The translations under genes and the position numbers were made by a program. A DNA stretch of 5,280 nt from Bacteroidales bacterium (GTDB taxonomy: Bacteria > Bacteroidota > Bacteroidia > Bacteroidales > UBA10428), in contig JAFGOZ010000482.1 of NCBI GenBank assembly GCA_016926235.1, forward strand, positions 1 through 5,280, read 5' to 3'. The notes beneath the pieces are model-generated. The model did no database searches. It was not told the origin of the DNA and saw only the letters and a list, made by a program, of their open reading frames with translations. This document shows positions 1 through 5,280 of the stretch, piece by piece. Numbering within the stretch: the first letter of the stretch is position 1; the number at the start of each line of letters is the position of its first letter.

Positions 1-32
1 CTTTCCTTTGCCGGAATTTTGTAATCACTCAT
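1..32 (-). CDS. Partial CDS, N-terminus only, unknown product
   Basis: An ATG on the minus strand at 32-30 opens a frame that runs off the left edge of the window, reading MSDYKIPAKE. A clear AAGGAG sequence lies 8 nt upstream, which makes this a believable start even though only ten codons are visible. The gene follows palindrome 1 by about 65 nt, so it would be the first gene of the next module in the array. Ten residues are too few to assign a family. Confidence 0.6.
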   Translation of the reverse strand, partial: MSDYKIPAKE

Positions 33-40
33 AAGTTAAT

Positions 41-46
41 CTCCTT
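41..46 (-). promoter_or_regulatory. Ribosome binding site of the left-edge gene
   Basis: AAGGAG on the minus strand, 8 nt before the ATG at 32. It is the only strong Shine-Dalgarno sequence in the window. The other genes have weak or no such motif, as is usual in Bacteroidota, so it decides the start of the partial gene. A TTGACA-like hexamer lies about 20 nt further upstream, but no matching -10 element was seen. Confidence 0.6.
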
Positions 47-97
47 TTTGTTTTTAAAAAGTGTCAACTTATTTCAGGAAAAGACATCTCATAATAT

Positions 98-237
98 TAC
101 CGGCAACGTTTGGCGGTATGAAACGTTGGGGAGTTCGGAGCTATTTTACTATCAAGGTACAACGAACTTTGATGCGAGAATCAATGTTCGAATAACCACC
201 TCACCCCCAATGTTTTATGACCGCGTGTTGGCGGTAG
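98..237 (-). repeat. attC-like palindrome 1
   Basis: An imperfect palindrome of about 140 bp. On the minus strand it opens with TACCGCCAACACGCGG and closes with CCAAACGTTGCCGGTA. The outer arms pair with bulges, including AAC-(A)-CG against CGTT, and continue into ATAAAACATTGGGG against CCCCAACGTTTCAT. A variable centre follows, with a distal TTCG/CGAA stem at 134-137 and 189-192. The ends fit an R''...R' layout like that of integron attC sites, with a GTT core at 105-107. It is closely similar to palindrome 2 at its ends but differs in the centre. It separates module A from the left-edge gene. An alternative is a transcribed intergenic repeat of another kind. Confidence 0.75.
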
Positions 238-289
238 TTAATATTATAGTTTTATCAAGTTAAAGTCATTTTCAGTTAAAATTTAATTG

Positions 290-721
290 TCAGTCAGAAG
301 TTTTAGAACCTTTTTTTAGAACTAAAAACCATAAAATTATTATAGCAAAGAATACTAAGATAAACACAAATCCCCAATCAGGTCCTTGAAGTATAATATC
401 ATCACCAACTGCCTCCATACCGTCTCGAGTTCTAATCCATTGTGTATTTCCTATATGTGTATCTGAAACCGCCTCAAATATTGCAAGTACAAATAATGTA
501 AGACTAATTATTCCTGAAAGAATTCGTTCTAAGATATTATCTGTTTTTTCATTTAGTTGCCAATGATTCCAAATCCAACCTAATAATACCCAGACAAGAA
601 ACGGAATAAGTATTAAATATCCAATTCGAATTCCAAGCCATACAGGCCATGATTCATTGATTGGCCCCCATATAAGTAATACAACAAAAACAGTACCTGC
701 TAAATATTTTCTAAAAGCCAT
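290..721 (-). CDS. Small multi-pass membrane protein, unknown function
   Basis: A 143-residue protein with about four hydrophobic membrane segments, near residues 6-20, 28-52, 68-84 and 116-136. A hydrophilic loop of about 30 residues separates the last two, and a short basic tail (KKGSK) follows. It is rich in tryptophan (WPVW, WIWNHWQ). No enzyme motif was found and I do not recognise the family. It is the second gene of module A, 49 nt after the stop of the membrane-anchored protein at 771-1526, so the two are probably co-transcribed. The start is the first ATG in the frame, with no clear ribosome binding site. The stop lies about 50 nt before palindrome 1. Its role is unknown; a membrane partner or immunity-type protein is possible, but this is only context. 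Confidence 0.75.
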   Translation of the reverse strand: MAFRKYLAGTVFVVLLIWGPINESWPVWLGIRIGYLILIPFLVWVLLGWIWNHWQLNEKTDNILERILSGIISLTLFVLAIFEAVSDTHIGNTQWIRTRDGMEAVGDDIILQGPDWGFVFILVFFAIIILWFLVLKKGSKTSD

Positions 722-770
722 AATATATCTACTTTTTCATTTATTTGATATTAGTTTTTGACTGAAATTG

Positions 771-1526
771 TTATGCAAATCCTTTAGGTTTAAATCTTAT
801 GAAATTATTATTATTTGTAAAATTATCAAACTCGAATAATGTATAAAATCTGCTTTTGGCTGAATTTTTATACTCTAACAATATCTTTAAATCTTGGAAT
901 TCTACAGGAAATTTATCAAGTTTTGGACGTTCAGATGGAATGCTCTCAGTGTATTTTTGATATTCACATTTAAGAACAATATCATCATCAGATGTTTTGA
1001 TTGGTTTTAAATTATTTAGAGAGTCTATTTTAGTGAACCATATTCCTGATGATTTTCTGTAAATCTTTGGATAGAAAGCTGTCACATCAGAATTGTTTCT
1101 AATTATTAATTTGTATTTCCATTTTAATCCCCAAACGTGAATTGCCTTTTCTCCTTCAATGTATCCTTTTGAAAGGTCATTTTTCCAACTCAATCCTTCA
1201 TTAGAATTTAATCCTCCATCAGGAATAAGTTCAAAAGTTAATTCAGGTCTAATAAAAAACTTTTTTCTTATCCATGGAATTATCGCAATTATAAGAGCCA
1301 CTATGATAGCAATAATCCCAAGCATAATATTAAAGTCAATATTTTTTTTATCGCTCGGTTCTTCACTTGACTCACTTTTTAAAATTATCGAGTCATCAAT
1401 CTTTTTAATATCAATCGTATCAGTTATCATAGTATCTGAATAAGTAACTTTTGATTCGACTGTATCAATTGAGTAGCTCTGTAATGAATAAAAAATTAAA
1501 ATCAATAGTATGCTAATTGTTCTCAT
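771..1526 (-). CDS. Membrane-anchored protein with N-terminal signal, unknown function
   Basis: A 251-residue protein. Residues 1-19 form a signal-like stretch (MRT then a hydrophobic run ending near SYS). A polar, acidic and serine-rich linker spans about 20-64. One strong transmembrane segment follows at about 66-85, ended by IRKK (86-89). By the positive-inside rule the linker would be periplasmic and the C-terminal 160 residues cytoplasmic. The C-terminal part looks beta-rich (for example KYKLIIRNNSDVTAF at 137-151), perhaps an immunoglobulin-like or adaptor fold, with no catalytic motif seen. It is the first gene of module A; its ATG lies about 20 nt from the end of palindrome 2, leaving room for only a very short leader. 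No Shine-Dalgarno sequence is evident. I do not recognise the family. Confidence 0.75.
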   Translation of the reverse strand: MRTISILLILIFYSLQSYSIDTVESKVTYSDTMITDTIDIKKIDDSIILKSESSEEPSDKKNIDFNIMLGIIAIIVALIIAIIPWIRKKFFIRPELTFELIPDGGLNSNEGLSWKNDLSKGYIEGEKAIHVWGLKWKYKLIIRNNSDVTAFYPKIYRKSSGIWFTKIDSLNNLKPIKTSDDDIVLKCEYQKYTESIPSERPKLDKFPVEFQDLKILLEYKNSAKSRFYTLFEFDNFTNNNNFIRFKPKGFA

Positions 1527-1542
1527 GGTTGTCTGTTTTAAT

Positions 1543-1680
1543 TACCGCCAACGTTTGGCGGTATGAAATCGTTGGGGATTGCGGGCTACTTTCCTGTCCA
1601 GTTACACCGAACGTAATGCGTGGCAGGAAGCTCGCATAACCACCTAAACCCCAATGTTTTATACCGCGTGTTGTGCAACG
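1543..1680 (-). repeat. attC-like palindrome 2
   Basis: On the minus strand it opens with CGTTGCACAACACGCGGT and closes with ACCGCCAAACGTTGGCGGTA. The inner arms ATAAAACATTGGGG and CCCCAACGATTTCAT match palindrome 1 nearly base for base. The distal arm pairs TGCGAGCTTCCTG (1636-1624) with CAGGAAAGTAGCCCGCA (1596-1580). The outermost bases pair poorly with each other but perfectly with the far ends of the neighbouring modules, as expected for an integrated cassette site. The putative core GTT is at 1552-1550. The stop codon of the 1684-2451 gene is only a few bases outside it. Confidence 0.78.
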
Positions 1681-1683
1681 TTT

Positions 1684-2451
1684 TTATATCATTAGTTTCT
1701 TTATTTGTTCTTCTAAATCAATGTACTTAGCTTTTAATTCGTCATCCATTATGTCAGGATTCATATCGTCTTTAGCCATTTTGAATACAGCTAAACTAAA
1801 AATCTGTGATAATTTAAATTGATAAAAAGTATTAGCAATATATTCAATGTCCTTATAAAAATCGTCATGACTAATTCTAATTTTCTCATCCTCTGGCAAA
1901 TGCTCTAAATATTTGTATTTAGGTTCTTTTTTAGGAAAACCATCATAATGCTTTACACAATTACAAATCCAGTTAATTTTATGAAGCGAAATATCAGAAT
2001 ACCAGTCATTAAATTTGAAATTATAGTTTTTCTCAAAGAATTTCTCAATTGAATCTTTACCTTGCTTTCCATCATTGAACATTAGGTTAGCTTCTTTAAG
2101 CAAATCTTTAACGTAATTCTCGACCTTATGAAATAATCCTACATATCCTAAACGAATTGTATCATAATAATTTTCTTTTAGTTGTGATTCACTTATGTTT
2201 AGAATCTTTTTGTAAAACGAAGTCTTTAACTCTTTTTTAGTATCTACTAAAGCTTTGTTGGTCGATGGTATGAAATAACGTTGATATAAAGTTTTATAAT
2301 CTTGAATGTCGGAAAAACGAGTAATAATAAAATTGAAAAGCCGATTTGCATCAGCATCAGTTTGGGTTAAATCGAAATTTGGTATTTTGGAAAACTCATT
2401 AGCCAAATTCGCTATTAACTGGTCAATCTTATTTTGTTTTCCTTTTTTCAT
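1684..2451 (-). CDS. HEPN-like protein, unknown function
   Basis: A 255-residue, mostly helical, soluble protein, with no signal peptide or membrane segment seen. A helix with LGYVGLFHKVENYVKDLL at 101-118 and a short motif CNCVKHYDGFPKK at 163-175 resemble the paired helices and the N..KH(x)G turn seen in many HEPN-related proteins. The arginine of a standard RX4-6H site is not evident, so the assignment is tentative. The start codon overlaps the stop of the SUKH gene by 4 nt (ATGA at 2451-2448), implying translational coupling and a shared function. It ends only 11 nt before the variable end of palindrome 2. It may be the effector or partner of the SUKH protein, but no family was recognised. 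Confidence 0.75.
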   Translation of the reverse strand: MKKGKQNKIDQLIANLANEFSKIPNFDLTQTDADANRLFNFIITRFSDIQDYKTLYQRYFIPSTNKALVDTKKELKTSFYKKILNISESQLKENYYDTIRLGYVGLFHKVENYVKDLLKEANLMFNDGKQGKDSIEKFFEKNYNFKFNDWYSDISLHKINWICNCVKHYDGFPKKEPKYKYLEHLPEDEKIRISHDDFYKDIEYIANTFYQFKLSQIFSLAVFKMAKDDMNPDIMDDELKAKYIDLEEQIKKLMI

Positions 2452-2936
2452 AATTCATCTGCAAACTTATCTTCAGATACAAGACCATTATAAAAATCAT
2501 CAAATGAATCAGCGATATGAATATCCTCTCCACATTCACAATCAATCCACCTAACTGAAGGTATAACGCTCAGTCGATAATCAAGAGTAATCCACCAATG
2601 ACCATCTCCAGTCAATAAAACTTGTTTTTCAGGCAATCCCCATTCTTGAATCATATAGTCGGATTGCATAATATTATGTGCAGAATCCGATTCTTTGTCC
2701 AAAACAATCCCGAACAATTCAGTCAATGGCACATGATTATCCGCCCATGTAGTCTTTATTGTCATTGGGAAGGCAAATCCTTTTGTGTATCCACCGTTTT
2801 GAATTTTAAGCAAATCAAGAAAAGAATCAGGTAGTTTTACTCCTAATTCGGATTCCGCTAGTTCAATCATTTTTTCAGTCAAAGGGGGATTATCGTAATA
2901 ATTTGAATCCCAAAAATCAGTCATGTTTATTGTCAT
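2448..2936 (-). CDS. SMI1/KNR4 (SUKH-1) family immunity-type protein
   Basis: A 162-residue cytoplasmic protein with the SUKH-1 pattern. There is an N-terminal PPLTEKMIELAESELGVKLP at 17-36, then FLDLLKIQNGGY at 39-50, an aromatic W-D-H-V segment near 64-69, EWGLPEKQVLLTGDGHWWITLDYR at 98-121 and a final acidic helix SFDDFYNGLV at 144-153. Length is typical of the family. SUKH proteins are known as immunity proteins against toxins, often nucleases, of polymorphic or contact-dependent systems; no toxin gene is present here. It is the first gene of module B, 18 nt from the end of palindrome 3, and overlaps the next gene by 4 nt. A second ATG four codons in could also be the start. Confidence 0.9.
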   Translation of the reverse strand: MTINMTDFWDSNYYDNPPLTEKMIELAESELGVKLPDSFLDLLKIQNGGYTKGFAFPMTIKTTWADNHVPLTELFGIVLDKESDSAHNIMQSDYMIQEWGLPEKQVLLTGDGHWWITLDYRLSVIPSVRWIDCECGEDIHIADSFDDFYNGLVSEDKFADEL

Positions 2937-2954
2937 GTTCGGGGGTTGTTAAAT

Positions 2955-3098
2955 GTTGCACAACGTGCTACTGTAAATTTTCGGGCGGGCTTTAATCGCA
3001 GTTAACCATCGAGCCGTTGAAGCTTAATTTACAGACATTTGGTGTCAGTTTGTACTTCACCCCCGCCTGAAATTTGACAGTTTGTTGTGTGCCGTAGT
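2955..3098 (-). repeat. attC-like palindrome 3, divergent subtype
   Basis: On the minus strand it opens with ACTACGGCACACAAC and closes with CACGTTGTGCAAC. The arms CACAACAAACTGTCAAATTT and the complement of AAATTTACAGTAGCACGTTGTG pair with a few bulges, followed by a GGCGGG/CCCGCC stem (3068-3063 and 2989-2984). The outer logic is that of palindromes 1 and 2, but the inner arms are unrelated in sequence and the opening lacks the ACGCGGT block. A putative GTT core lies at 2964-2962. It directly abuts the stop codon of the 3099-3611 gene. Confidence 0.72.
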
Positions 3099-3611
3099 TT
3101 ATTCATTATCAATCGTTTTGCTATATAAAATCAATGAATTTACATAGTCAGAATCAAATTCAATTGTCCTTATACTTTTGAGTTTATATTTTTCAGTCTC
3201 CCCCCATTTTGCCTTTGCATCAATCTCTAGTATTATAAGGTCTTCCTTAGTTATCTTCACAAGTCGACCAATAAAACACACCGTATCATCCTTTTTCTCA
3301 ATCTTAAATGCTCCAAATCTATCCGATACTAGTTGAAGGGTCTCGGATAAGTCAGTTATTGGAAAAATATCCTTGTCTGTTGGTACTAGATTTTTTGCTT
3401 TCAATACTTTTTCTCGAAATTTTTCATAATCGTCTCTTTTATATTTGAGAATCTTATCTGTCTTTAAAATCAAGTATCCGTCAATTACATAATCAACAGG
3501 GTTGTATTTAATCAGTGTCCAATCGTTATTAAAATTAATAAGGTATCCAGATATTATATCTTTTCTATCTCGATATTTAAATGAAACAAATTTTCCTTTT
3601 AAATCTTTCAT
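3099..3611 (-). CDS. Protein with two probable small beta-barrel domains, unknown function
   Basis: A 170-residue soluble protein. Residues 5-56 (GKFVSFKYRD, GYLINFNNDWTLIKYNPVDY, GYLILKTDKI) and 110-160 (VCFIGRLVKITKEDLIILEI, YKLKSIRTIEF) both look like small, strand-rich Sm/SH3-like barrels. The alternation is short strand, turn, strand, and a final strand with an I-R/K-x-I pattern. A charged helical linker joins them (60-80). I recall similar hypothetical proteins in Bacteroidota but no defined function; RNA or protein binding is only a guess. It is the second gene of module C, 18 nt after the stop of the HEPN-motif gene, so the two are probably one transcript. The start ATG has no strong ribosome binding site. 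Confidence 0.75.
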   Translation of the reverse strand: MKDLKGKFVSFKYRDRKDIISGYLINFNNDWTLIKYNPVDYVIDGYLILKTDKILKYKRDDYEKFREKVLKAKNLVPTDKDIFPITDLSETLQLVSDRFGAFKIEKKDDTVCFIGRLVKITKEDLIILEIDAKAKWGETEKYKLKSIRTIEFDSDYVNSLILYSKTIDNE

Positions 3612-3629
3612 ATCTCAATATTGTAGTAG

Positions 3630-4268
3630 TCATTTTGCCTCTGTAATTGTTCTTTTTTCTATTTTGTCTTTTAAACTATTAAGTTCATTAATAAGTTGTT
3701 CATTTATCACTTTTTCATGATTTTGCAATCCATGAACAATTTCATTTCTGGTTTTTCGAATATAATCAAGTCTATCCAATTCAGATTCAGATATTATTTT
3801 GTTCTTATTTAAGAATCGAATAGCATCAAGTGGCATTCTTATCTTTTCATTATCATCCAGTACAAAGGACATATCCTTAGCCATCCTTTCAAAATGTATC
3901 CAAGAATTCATGAATTTACCGAGCAAATCTGTTTTATCATCTTTGTCCTCAATAAGTTTAAATCCAAAAAGATTTAGAAATAAAAGATTTGCAATCTCTG
4001 CGTAAACTTCAGCATTTGTCCTCTCTACAGTTAATCCATTGCCTTGATGGTATAACTCATTCCTTAATCTATGAAACCATTCTATTTCACCCAAATCAAT
4101 CCCTTTTATTTTATCCGAAGCGTATTCTTCGATGCCATCCAATAATTTTGGAAAACTTTCACACATCTCAGAATAGTCCTTCCGGGAAATTTGAATTGCA
4201 GTAATCCTTTTAGGAAGTCCAAGAAAAGTCTTCATCATCAACTCCACAGAATTGTCAATGCAAATCAT
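3630..4268 (-). CDS. HEPN-motif protein, N-terminally truncated
   Basis: A 212-residue protein read from the first available ATG. It carries two RX4H motifs, RNELYH at 69-74 and RNEIVH at 174-179, each in a helical setting as in HEPN ribonuclease-type domains. The stretch IDLGEIEWFHRLRNELYHQG at 57-76 matches a widespread family of uncharacterised proteins I recognise only by its conserved segments. In that family a conserved block resembling SPWASGPGELLRHGL precedes this point, and here it is still encoded in frame upstream (4269-4373) but without any ATG, GTG or TTG start. The gene therefore seems to have lost its start at the junction near 4365. If translated from 4268 it lacks about 30-40 family residues and may be inactive. 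It is followed after 18 nt by the 3099-3611 gene. Confidence 0.7.
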   Translation of the reverse strand: MICIDNSVELMMKTFLGLPKRITAIQISRKDYSEMCESFPKLLDGIEEYASDKIKGIDLGEIEWFHRLRNELYHQGNGLTVERTNAEVYAEIANLLFLNLFGFKLIEDKDDKTDLLGKFMNSWIHFERMAKDMSFVLDDNEKIRMPLDAIRFLNKNKIISESELDRLDYIRKTRNEIVHGLQNHEKVINEQLINELNSLKDKIEKRTITEAK

Positions 4269-4373
4269 TGCTATCCTTCGATTGGAATCAGTATCCTTTT
4301 GAAGAAGTTTTAATCCGTGTCTTAATAATTCACCTGGTCCAGATGCCCATGGCGAATTTGCTTTGACCGCGTG
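4269..4373 (-). pseudogene. Orphaned 5' coding segment of the HEPN-motif gene
   Basis: The frame of the 3630-4268 gene stays open for 35 codons upstream, up to a TAA at 4376-4374 inside the palindrome remnant. It encodes the family-like sequence NSPWASGPGELLRHGLKLLQ and then KDTDSNRRIA just before the internal ATG. No start codon of any usual type lies in this frame. The out-of-frame ATG at 4351-4349 reads only six codons before a stop. The natural start and leader were apparently removed when this DNA was joined to the site remnant at about 4362-4366. Confidence 0.6.
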
Positions 4374-4387
4374 TTAGGGTTAGGTGG
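4365..4387 (-). repeat. attC-like palindrome remnant (opening end only)
   Basis: On the minus strand, CCTAACCCTAACACGCGGTC contains the conserved AACACGCGGTC block that opens palindrome 1 (palindrome 2 has AACACGCGGT) and lies in the same place, right after the stop of the module D gene. The rest of a site (the ATAAAACATTGGGG arm, the centre and the closing CGTT end) is missing; the sequence instead enters the coding frame of the HEPN-motif gene. This is best read as a deletion joint. It removes the variable end of module C that should match ACTACGGCACACAAC at 3098-3084. Confidence 0.65.
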
Positions 4388-4394
4388 TTAACCC
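4377..4394. repeat. Short perfect inverted repeat
   Basis: GGGTTA (4377-4382), a 6-nt loop, and TAACCC (4389-4394). It spans the stop codon and last codon of the HEPN gene and the end of the palindrome remnant. It could form a weak hairpin in the transcript, but no T-run follows on either strand, so it is not a clear terminator. On the plus strand the sequence also resembles the inner GGGGTTTAGGTGGTTA part of palindrome 2 in reverse orientation. Confidence 0.4.
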
Positions 4395-4780
4395 AACATT
4401 AATTTAATTTGATTTATGAATTCTATCATCTCCTTGTGCATAGCTTCAACCTCTTCTTTTTCAAATTTAACGAAGGCATCATAGTCTCCTTTTGTCCGAT
4501 TTTGATATGCATTTCTTAGAATCTTACCGAATTTAACATCAATTTGTCCGGTTGAAATAAACTCCTTATTAAACCAACCAATCAGTTGAGCATGTTTGGA
4601 AGTCTCGAATTGATGTTTTAATGCCAGAGCTGTCACAGCATAATACAACCCATAATATATCCGGTTAACTGCAACAATCAGCCTATCTGATTCAATAAGG
4701 AATCTTGAAAGATCAATTGTTTCTTTTGCCTGTTCGAATCGATAGGCAATCAAAGTATCTCTATCGCTGTCACTTATCAT
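4388..4780 (-). CDS. HEPN domain protein, partner of a nucleotidyltransferase
   Basis: A 130-residue helical cytoplasmic protein of the HEPN superfamily (PF05168-like by its pattern). It has VAVNRIYYGLYYAVTALAL at 36-54, SKHAQLIGWFNKEFISTG at 61-78, and GKILRNAYQNRTKGDYDAF at 85-103, where the LR...(A/G)DY segment is typical of the family. The RX4-6H motif of ribonuclease HEPN toxins such as HepT is not seen; the corresponding place reads RNAYQNR. Its ATG overlaps the stop of the nucleotidyltransferase gene by 4 nt (ATGA), the standard arrangement of HEPN/MNT toxin-antitoxin type pairs. Whether it is a toxin here or a substrate-binding partner cannot be told. It ends directly at the palindrome remnant. 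Confidence 0.88.
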   Translation of the reverse strand: MISDSDRDTLIAYRFEQAKETIDLSRFLIESDRLIVAVNRIYYGLYYAVTALALKHQFETSKHAQLIGWFNKEFISTGQIDVKFGKILRNAYQNRTKGDYDAFVKFEKEEVEAMHKEMIEFINQIKLMLG

Positions 4781-5100
4781 GCGTGATAACCCTGATTTAA
4801 AGCATTTACAAAAATGGGTTGTTTTCCTCTTGGAGAATCTAACTCGATCTCACTGAGAATATGTGTATCGGTAAGAATCCCGTATTTTAGATCAATCTCG
4901 TAGCAGACATCTGAGATTTGTCTTTCTAATCTCCAGTCAGATTTATCCTTTACAAGAATCAAAATATCATAATCCGAATCTCCTTTTGATTTATCTGTCA
5001 TTTGAGAGCCAAATAATACAACATCCTTCAGGTTATCATGAAGCATATTGGACAAACTGTACTTTAAATCAGTTAATATTTGAATCTTATCGTCTGTCAT
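4777..5100 (-). CDS. Minimal nucleotidyltransferase (MNT), antitoxin-type partner of HEPN
   Basis: Starting at the ATG at 5100-5098 this is a 107-residue protein. It has the nucleotidyltransferase signature VVLFGSQMTDKSKGDSDYD: GS at 31-32, then ten residues, then DYD at 43-45, the GSX10DXD metal-binding motif. A further acidic cluster YEIDLKYG (67-74) may supply the third ligand. In characterised HEPN/MNT pairs this enzyme adenylylates the HEPN partner to neutralise it. A longer frame opens with GTG at 5181, adding 27 residues. I prefer the ATG because a promoter-like TATCTTTG lies 20 nt upstream of it, the added residues do not resemble the family, and the length fits minimal nucleotidyltransferases. 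The stop overlaps the HEPN start by 4 nt. Confidence 0.85.
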   Translation of the reverse strand: MTDDKIQILTDLKYSLSNMLHDNLKDVVLFGSQMTDKSKGDSDYDILILVKDKSDWRLERQISDVCYEIDLKYGILTDTHILSEIELDSPRGKQPIFVNALNQGYHA

Positions 5101-5120
5101 GTCCTGTTGGTTACTTTTCC

Positions 5121-5128
5121 CAAAGATA
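5121..5128 (-). promoter_or_regulatory. Bacteroidota-type promoter -7 element
   Basis: TATCTTTG on the minus strand matches the TAnnTTTG -7 consensus of the Bacteroidota primary sigma factor. A TTG lies 25 nt upstream, somewhat farther than the usual spacing, so the -33 match is weak. Transcription would start about 10-15 nt before the ATG at 5100, giving module D its own promoter inside the cassette. I found no equal match before the first genes of modules A and B. Confidence 0.45.
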
Positions 5129-5180
5129 ATAAATCCTATAAAGTATTTATCATCAAGGTATAATCTCACTTTGTTTCCCA

Positions 5181-5231
5181 CACCAGATAACGCCTGACTT
5201 TTACTAAAATAGGTTTACACTTTTCGTGTTA
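5181..5231 (-). repeat. Possible attC-like site of module D, short or divergent
   Basis: On the minus strand GGCGTTATCTGGTG (5194-5181) has the CGTT closing end seen in palindromes 1-3 and sits where a cassette would begin. About 30 nt further out, TTTAACACG (5233-5225) resembles the AACACG opening end, which would make a site of only about 50 bp. A small hairpin, TACAC and GTGTTA around TTTTC, lies at 5216-5231. The inner arms show little pairing, so this is uncertain. The CGTT end does not complement the module D remnant at 4365-4387 beyond TAAC and CACC. Confidence 0.35.
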
Positions 5232-5280
5232 AAAATATTCATATTTATTATCTAAAAACTTTGTTCGAAAATCATTTTTA
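5229..5280 (-). CDS. Possible C-terminal tail of a gene running off the right edge
   Basis: One minus-strand frame is open from the edge for 16 codons and ends with TAA at 5231-5229, reading KNDFRTKFLDNKYEYF. The stop overlaps the AACACG-like end of the possible right-hand site, the same placement as the stops of other genes in this array next to their palindromes. An open stretch this short could be chance. Confidence 0.3.
   Translation of the reverse strand, partial: KNDFRTKFLDNKYEYF

Follow-up and report, generated by a model that had tools for sequence, protein, structure and literature searches.

We consider it very probable that a 5,280-nucleotide stretch of a Bacteroidales genome (GenBank assembly GCA_016926235.1, contig JAFGOZ010000482.1, positions 1 to 5,280; hereafter the window) lies within an integron-like cassette array, in whose relatives the enzyme is not the integron integrase IntI but a tyrosine recombinase related to XerA and IntI that lacks the IntI-specific insert. 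The initial annotation, made from the DNA of the window alone, had proposed either an integron array or another recombination system related to it and perhaps not yet described. Our results support this proposal, and its second half is the better description.

Hairpin sites of the window

Three hairpins of ∼125 bases, each read from AAC to GTT on the minus strand, separate co-oriented two-gene modules, and the list of open reading frames (ORFs) places all eight main genes on the minus strand. The three long palindromes and the common direction of the genes, both noticed in the initial annotation, were thus confirmed. The first attC-like site (site 1, 98..237, minus strand) runs from AAC at 229 to GTT at 105 and has the outer arms R'' TTAACTACCGCCAAC and R' GTTGCCGGTAATATT; site 2 (1543..1680, minus strand) runs from AAC at 1672 to GTT at 1550, with R'' GTTGCACAAC and R' GTTGGCGGTAATTAA; site 3 (2955..3098, minus strand) runs from AAC at 3086 to GTT at 2962 and has R' GTTGTGCAAC. 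With the covariance model R1 described below, they scored 92.3, 91.6, and 54.7 bits, respectively, all three being members of its training set.

In integrons, the R' of a site belongs to the next cassette, so R' should pair with the R'' of the next site better than with its own. In the window, R' of site 3 (GTTGTGCAAC) pairs with R'' of site 2 (GTTGCACAAC) at 10 of 10 positions and with its own R'' at 7 of 10. R' of site 2 (GTTGGCGGTA) pairs with R'' of site 1 (TACCGCCAAC) at 10 of 10 positions and with its own R'' at 4 of 10, and the former match extends to 14/15 over a longer stretch (inverted repeat I8). Furthermore, DNA folding predicted a stabler plus (bottom) strand than gene strand in two of the three sites (-21.3 versus -17.9 for site 1 and -26.0 versus -20.3 for site 2).

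Bases 1547-1625 of site 2 matched a plasmid of Persicobacter sp. JZB09 (blastn, E value of 9e-12) and plasmid pPP2 of Persicobacter psychrovividus (E value of 4e-3). The best blastn match of site 1 alone had an E value of 0.1, site 3 retrieved only unrelated Pantoea matches among plasmids (E value of 0.5), and Rfam contained no match for the sites, returning two chance-level hits.

Two other places in the window resemble parts of sites. At 4363..4392 on the minus strand, the R'' CCCTAAC (∼4381) is followed by ACGCGGTCA, the start of L'', without L' and R'. The initial annotation had seen a remnant here (4365-4387); it does read as a half-site, but its detector score of 21 is within the range of shuffled sequence. 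We interpret the half-site as a probable deletion scar. The frame of the neighboring 212-amino-acid gene continues open as far as the half-site and contains no ATG, GTG, or TTG upstream of 4268 (4268-4360), as would be expected had a deletion taken the remainder of the site together with the beginning of the gene in the next cassette. The second place is the GTT box GTTATCTGG at 5190-5200, just before the nucleotidyltransferase gene. It resembles an R' box and had been put forward as a possible fifth site near 5194, but neither this nor an attI could be confirmed: it has no hairpin, fails to pair with the half-site R'' at 4381, and shows by eye no short inverted repeat right before the GTT of the kind seen at attI-like sites of relatives.

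Cassette arrays beside recombinases in other genomes

We scanned genomes with an alignment (A1) of the pPP2 recombinase and 12 relatives that was built without regard to sites, and we analyzed the best 80 of 544 confirmed loci; 29 loci from a scan of viral contigs were left out of the analysis. Bacteroidota are named in the record titles of 72 of these best 80 loci. Without any model, the stem detector by itself picked up 120 sites in the 315 kb downstream of the recombinase versus 13 in the 704 kb upstream. R1 was built from 59 sites (3 from the window, 34 from recombinase loci, and 22 from pPP2), a 60th having been omitted from its alignment because its coordinates lay beyond the contig end. 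It yielded 182 hits in the 80 loci, all except one on the recombinase strand. Merging the detector and R1 gave 186 sites in the 315 kb downstream versus 12 in the 704 kb upstream, and sites occurred downstream in 45 of the 53 loci having at least 1 kb of downstream sequence. In addition, 26/80 loci have a contig end no more than 600 bases downstream of the recombinase, and 0/80 have one that close upstream, as expected if assembly breaks in repetitive arrays.

The sites of these loci have a median length of 124; the base preceding GTT is C in 171/182, and the base following AAC is A in 180/186. The consensus of the classical R' box, GTTRRRY, fits just 15 of 182 R' boxes. The bottom strand was predicted to be the stabler one in 155 of 186 sites and, counted by locus, in 41 of 46 (P = 6.6e-8). 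When 60 sampled sites were compared with shuffled versions, the mean z score was -3.9, and 50 of the 60 fell below -2. The middle of the sites (columns 30-110 of alignment A2) is semi-conserved between genera (AGTGCT..., GACAG...); a classical attC has a variable loop.

Neighboring sites were chained, as in the window: R'(n) paired with R''(n+1) at 6/6 positions in 112 of 140 neighbors of the genome loci, compared to 0.9% for random pairs, 5/183 for the site's own R'', and 3/137 for that of the previous site. In a positive control, the integron of Gemmatirosa kalamazoonensis, which has an IntI pointing in the direction of its array, the same detector showed 6/6 chaining in 25 of 39 neighbors, false hits included. 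These counts bear on whether the sites might be ordinary dispersed palindromic repeats, similar to repetitive extragenic palindromes (REP), bacterial interspersed mosaic elements (BIME), or miniature inverted-repeat transposable elements (MITE), that lie between genes and spread by copying of the palindrome alone. The sites are indeed palindromic, intergenic, and mutually similar, with a semi-conserved middle. However, their outer arms match the next site and not their own, they share one strand and occur downstream of a single recombinase family, and the unit repeated in pPP2 is a whole cassette, from GTT to GTT, rather than the palindrome. An origin as dispersed repeats is therefore extremely unlikely. 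Single palindromes at fixed sites, with no gene turnover and no recombinase, would have pointed to such repeats according to the initial annotation; the relatives present a different picture.

Plasmid pPP2 (404,592 bases) contains 125 sites between 303,376 and 403,531, in an array of ∼100 kb behind an attI-like hairpin; the search returned 127 places, including this hairpin and one doubtful match (301815-302047). The DNA model found no sites on the opposite strand. R'(n) paired with R''(n+1) at 6/6 in 85 of 126 neighbors, a count lowered because at least one site was placed three bases off, and with its own R'' in 5 of 127 sites. The median cassette length is 686 bases. In 82 cassettes the longest ORF is on the array strand, in 26 it is on the other strand, and 18 have no ORF of 60 amino acids. 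We found 25 cassette families with two to nine near-identical copies (95% or more), 70 copies in total. Every copy has a different pair of neighbors; in 2 of the 95 copy pairs, the two copies have one neighbor family in common. When all 95 pairs were aligned at their ends, the right limit of identity was the GTT itself in 45 and at most 2 bases further in 41, and the left limit was at most 3 bases from GTT in 70. A 379-amino-acid tyrosine recombinase heads the array in the same direction, and ∼107 bases beyond it an inverted repeat is followed by AAACAAGTTGTTCCC, the GTTGTTCC of which pairs with the GGAACAAC of the first site. The array also includes a gene annotated as ParB/RepB/Spo0J and an inserted transposase pair (L007 11940-13043, 22410-23616). 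JZB09 has a separate tyrosine recombinase gene, which overlaps the gene of a zinc-finger protein that resembles a transposase and is IS91-like by eye (L006 1126-3188); this pair may be another type of mobile element.

The repeated cassettes also speak to the idea that we are looking at a fossil array, once mobile and now shuffled and duplicated by homologous recombination between similar sites. Decay is what the half-site at 4381 and the start-less gene beside it resemble, and five array regions that we fetched from other genomes have no recombinase at their head. Yet the near-identical cassettes of pPP2 lie amid unlike neighbors and end at, or a few bases from, GTT, where homologous recombination is not expected to stop. 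Moreover, the recombinase frames are open and conserved in the alignment. We regard the fossil explanation as very unlikely and the array, as stated at the outset, as integron-like.

An attI site had been another feature to look for. An attI-like GTT that pairs with the first R'' at 9 or more of 12 positions was present in 34 of 35 loci, 38 to 250 bases past the matched recombinase frame, and 32 loci reached 10 or 11 of 12; the 35 loci are those whose first site is at most 1500 bases away from the recombinase. Most of the attI-like GTTs follow a short inverted repeat, for example, ATATAAACTCCCTATGGGAGTTTATCCAATT. The heads of ten fetched array regions were varied, and there is therefore more than one architecture. 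The head recombinase points in the array direction in three of them (G234, G170, and G262, the last cut at the region start). In G218 and G082 (L154-L157), short insertless recombinases of 272 to 280 amino acids, without the N-terminal extension, face away from the array. Array-head recombinases also face away from the array in G340 (L176-L180). Some arrays may lack a recombinase.

Recombinase family and distribution

The initial annotation had suggested a search for a tyrosine recombinase with the IntI-specific insert. The array-adjacent enzyme of the relatives turned out to have no such insert: the corresponding segment counts 20 residues in a close relative versus 62 in IntI4 (PDB 2A3V). 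Scores against the IntI model TIGR02249 were 198.3 bits (pPP2, in two pieces), 216.0, and 152.3 for three Persicobacter recombinases, of which only the first is known beside an array, and the cut-off is 265. In contrast, the pPP2 recombinase passed NF040815 (226.1 bits, cut-off of 220), the NCBIfam family named "site-specific tyrosine recombinase/integron integrase" (XerA/XerC/XerD-type). XerA and IntI4 were the nearest structures to the predicted fold (mean predicted local distance difference test score [pLDDT] of 82, predicted template modeling score [pTM] of 0.50). In 72 of the best 80 of 544 loci, the enzyme has ∼95 extra N-terminal residues, a region aligned there in part or in full. These residues had no Pfam match in seven relatives, and their domain model reads strand-strand-helix-strand-strand-helix-strand (A1 residues 1-95). 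In a quick tree of 55 proteins, five IntI rows grouped together (100), array-type recombinases grouped together (support of 80; the group includes L003, which is not known beside an array), and ten XerC/D-like rows stood apart; the order of IntI versus the array-type family was left unsettled by this tree.

To put numbers on the spread, we drew 296 genomes from the phylum of Marivirga and, as the initial annotation had recommended, scanned Bacteroidota with a covariance model of the sites. R1 matched (E value threshold of 0.001) in 155 of the 296 genomes and at least twice in 129; the number of sites per genome is low because only 11 candidates were scored in each. Searches of 18 whole genomes found 2 to 113 sites in each, among them 61 in Gillisia limnaea and 113 in Winogradskyella epiphytica. 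The N-terminal domain (model A5) was detected in 45 of the 296 genomes, and sites were present in 44 of these 45 versus 111 of the 251 genomes without the domain (Fisher P = 4.7e-13). In the sole survey of another phylum, that of a genome labeled Spirochaetaceae, 8 of 120 genomes had R1 hits, and one of these eight contained an array headed by a divergent recombinase. A survey centered on G334 (labeled Rickettsiales), meant as an other-phylum control, drew largely the same genomes as the draw of 296 and, not being independent, was not used. Arrays of the window's kind seem to be widespread yet unrecognized in Bacteroidota.

Several observations weigh against an integron-like array served by an insertless recombinase. 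The 5,280-nucleotide window itself contains no recombinase, attI, or excision product, and its recombinase gene and attI would lie outside it. The predicted fold of site 3 is slightly stabler on the top strand (bottom, -16.9; gene strand, -18.0). For site 1, the successor is beyond the window, and the R' and R'' of the site itself pair at 9 of 10 positions, so the three window sites alone would not settle the chaining; many relatives do. In the other genomes, 28 of 140 neighbors failed the 6/6 chaining test, 8 of the 53 loci with at least 1 kb downstream had no site, and 8 of the 182 R1 hits were upstream of the recombinase (six of them in L094). R1 was partly trained on loci that it later scanned (34 of 59 sites). 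The attI test gave no match in L088, and its counts include the fixed GTT (3 of 12 positions), with two loci at only 9 of 12 and runner-up GTTs at 6 to 9. No recombinase was found at the head in five of the ten fetched array regions (G305, G270, G182, G049, and G041), and 111 of the 155 site-bearing genomes had no match to the N-terminal domain in the same survey. Finally, IntI scored above its curated cut-off in two of the 33 genomes with arrays that were searched (L055 was left out); the titles of both describe them as metagenome-assembled.

The last result fits a canonical integron array of the CALIN type (cluster of attC sites lacking an integron integrase), with IntI elsewhere in the genome and the neighboring recombinase being there by coincidence. 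Such an array would share the integron logic of the sites, and chaining is also seen in the Gemmatirosa integron with its IntI. On the other hand, IntI above the curated cut-off was not found in 31 of the 33 array-bearing genomes, several of which are incomplete drafts, and the attI-like junction lies close behind an insertless recombinase frame in nearly all loci that could be compared. R1 also found no site in two IntI-bearing plasmid records, a weak argument since no candidate passed the first look, and the classical R' consensus describes few of the R' boxes. We therefore judge a CALIN very unlikely and retain the insertless recombinase as the probable enzyme of the relatives.

Window cassettes and known integrons

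Cassette 1 of the window extends from the TT of site 2 to the G of site 1 (107..1551, minus strand, 1445 bases), and cassette 2 extends from the TT of site 3 to the G of site 2 (1552..2963, minus strand, 1412 bases); the R'/R'' pairing and the repeated cassettes of pPP2 point to these boundaries. Cassette 1 carries two genes without assigned function, both on the minus strand like those that follow and both without Pfam match, encoding 143 (290..721) and 251 (771..1526) amino acids; the former product has hydrophobic stretches by eye. Cassette 2 carries the genes for a 255-amino-acid protein (1684..2451) and for a 162-amino-acid protein with an SMI1/KNR4 (SUKH) domain (2448..2936; Pfam E value of 3.8e-17). 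The 255-amino-acid protein belongs to a family without a Pfam domain and has 110 relatives; a taxon is named for six of them, each Bacteroidota. Of its 20 closest relatives, ten are on contigs of 0.9 to 1.5 kb. This is roughly cassette size and may reflect assembly breaks at flanking sites or just short metagenome contigs. Beyond site 3 are the genes for a 170-amino-acid protein without Pfam match (3099..3611) and for the 212-amino-acid protein, counted from the first ATG (3630..4268), with a weak HepT-like match under the curated cut-off. The last two genes encode a HEPN-domain protein of 130 amino acids (4388..4780; Pfam E value of 2.4e-11) and an MNT-like nucleotidyltransferase of 134 amino acids (4777..5181) that matches Pfam and PADLOC family PDC-S09 (E value of 2.7e-14), a candidate defense family; other PADLOC matches in the window were weak or candidate ones. 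Together, the HEPN and nucleotidyltransferase genes (4388-5181) likely form a toxin-antitoxin-type pair. Among 267 cassettes compared across genomes, six DNA pairs were found, none of them with a cassette of the window.

In the mechanism that we propose, a cassette consists of one or two genes plus one attC-like hairpin site. The bottom strand of the site would probably fold out, as in integrons, providing a single-stranded substrate, and a tyrosine recombinase would exchange strands at the GTT of R', as the cassette boundaries suggest. Cassettes would be freed as circles and inserted at the attI-like site just past the recombinase gene or at other sites. In the relatives, this work would be done by the XerA/IntI-related enzyme family without the IntI insert, whose gene lies immediately before the array and points the same way; the window would be linked in the same way to a recombinase of its own.

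On balance, we favor a broader hypothesis as well, in which these arrays form a second integron lineage that is carried by roughly half of the species of Bacteroidota and extends to other phyla; its insertless Xer/IntI-like recombinase, often with the N-terminal domain, would act on folded single-strand attC-like sites. If so, the IntI insert would be one of several ways to recognize hairpin sites, and a major phylum with integrons would have gone unnoticed. Should arrays accompanied by an insertless recombinase occur in roughly half of a major phylum, they would be a natural exception that is directly testable. Searches built on IntI or on classical-site models may have missed a large pool of cassettes, and the cargo of cassettes would comprise many short unnamed genes of Bacteroidota, HEPN/MNT and SUKH genes among them.

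According to the IntegronFinder 2.0 paper (PMC9024848), its earlier study had only In0 for Bacteroidetes, and a single complete integron was reported later, in Salinibacter ruber. PMC8352920 provides site models for 11 taxa, and no word starting with "bacteroid" occurs in its text. In PMC8618304 and PMC9668308, Bacteroidota are among the integron-bearing phyla; the latter gives the IntI-specific domain as a defining characteristic, and PMC8138268 describes incomplete conservation of the insert within its integron-like subgroup. Our search, to which preprints and most subscription papers were out of scope, found no description of arrays with insertless recombinases in Bacteroidota.

Known systems resemble these arrays to different degrees. 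Xer recombinases act at a single dif site. The Persicobacter recombinase is similar to the XerA/XerC/XerD type in passing NF040815 and in having both XerA-type proteins and IntI4 among its nearest solved structures, but the quick tree separates it from XerC/D-like proteins found in the same genomes, and its gene heads cassette arrays. CALIN, as presented in PMC9024848, are likewise arrays without IntI; in the relatives of the window, however, another recombinase adjoins. The closest likeness is to integrons (IntI-attI-attC), sedentary chromosomal ones included, a kind of system whose exchangeable cassettes disseminate resistance genes in other bacteria. Ordered cassettes, hairpins of the type R''/L''...L'/R', a GTT junction, an R' that belongs to the next cassette, an attI beside the recombinase gene, and a bottom strand that is predicted to fold better are all common to both. 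Indeed, attC-like sites are found in the window as well as downstream of the recombinases, attI-like sites are found beside the recombinase in loci of relatives, outside the window, and exchange of individual cassettes is apparent in pPP2, with none seen for the window cassettes. The arrays differ from integrons in their R' boxes, in their long sites with a semi-conserved middle, in the short inverted repeat of most attI-like sites, and above all in a recombinase that scores below the TIGR02249 cut-off, mostly has an extra N-terminal domain, and lacks the additional domain specific to IntI, a feature assessed in relatives rather than in the window. Read from the DNA, the site structure and chaining, the co-orientation, the duplication of cassettes in new contexts, the attI-like junctions adjacent to a recombinase, the predicted fold bias, and the missing insert suggest that the system of the window works like an integron and, judging from its relatives, is not an IntI integron but a widespread variant with an insertless recombinase.

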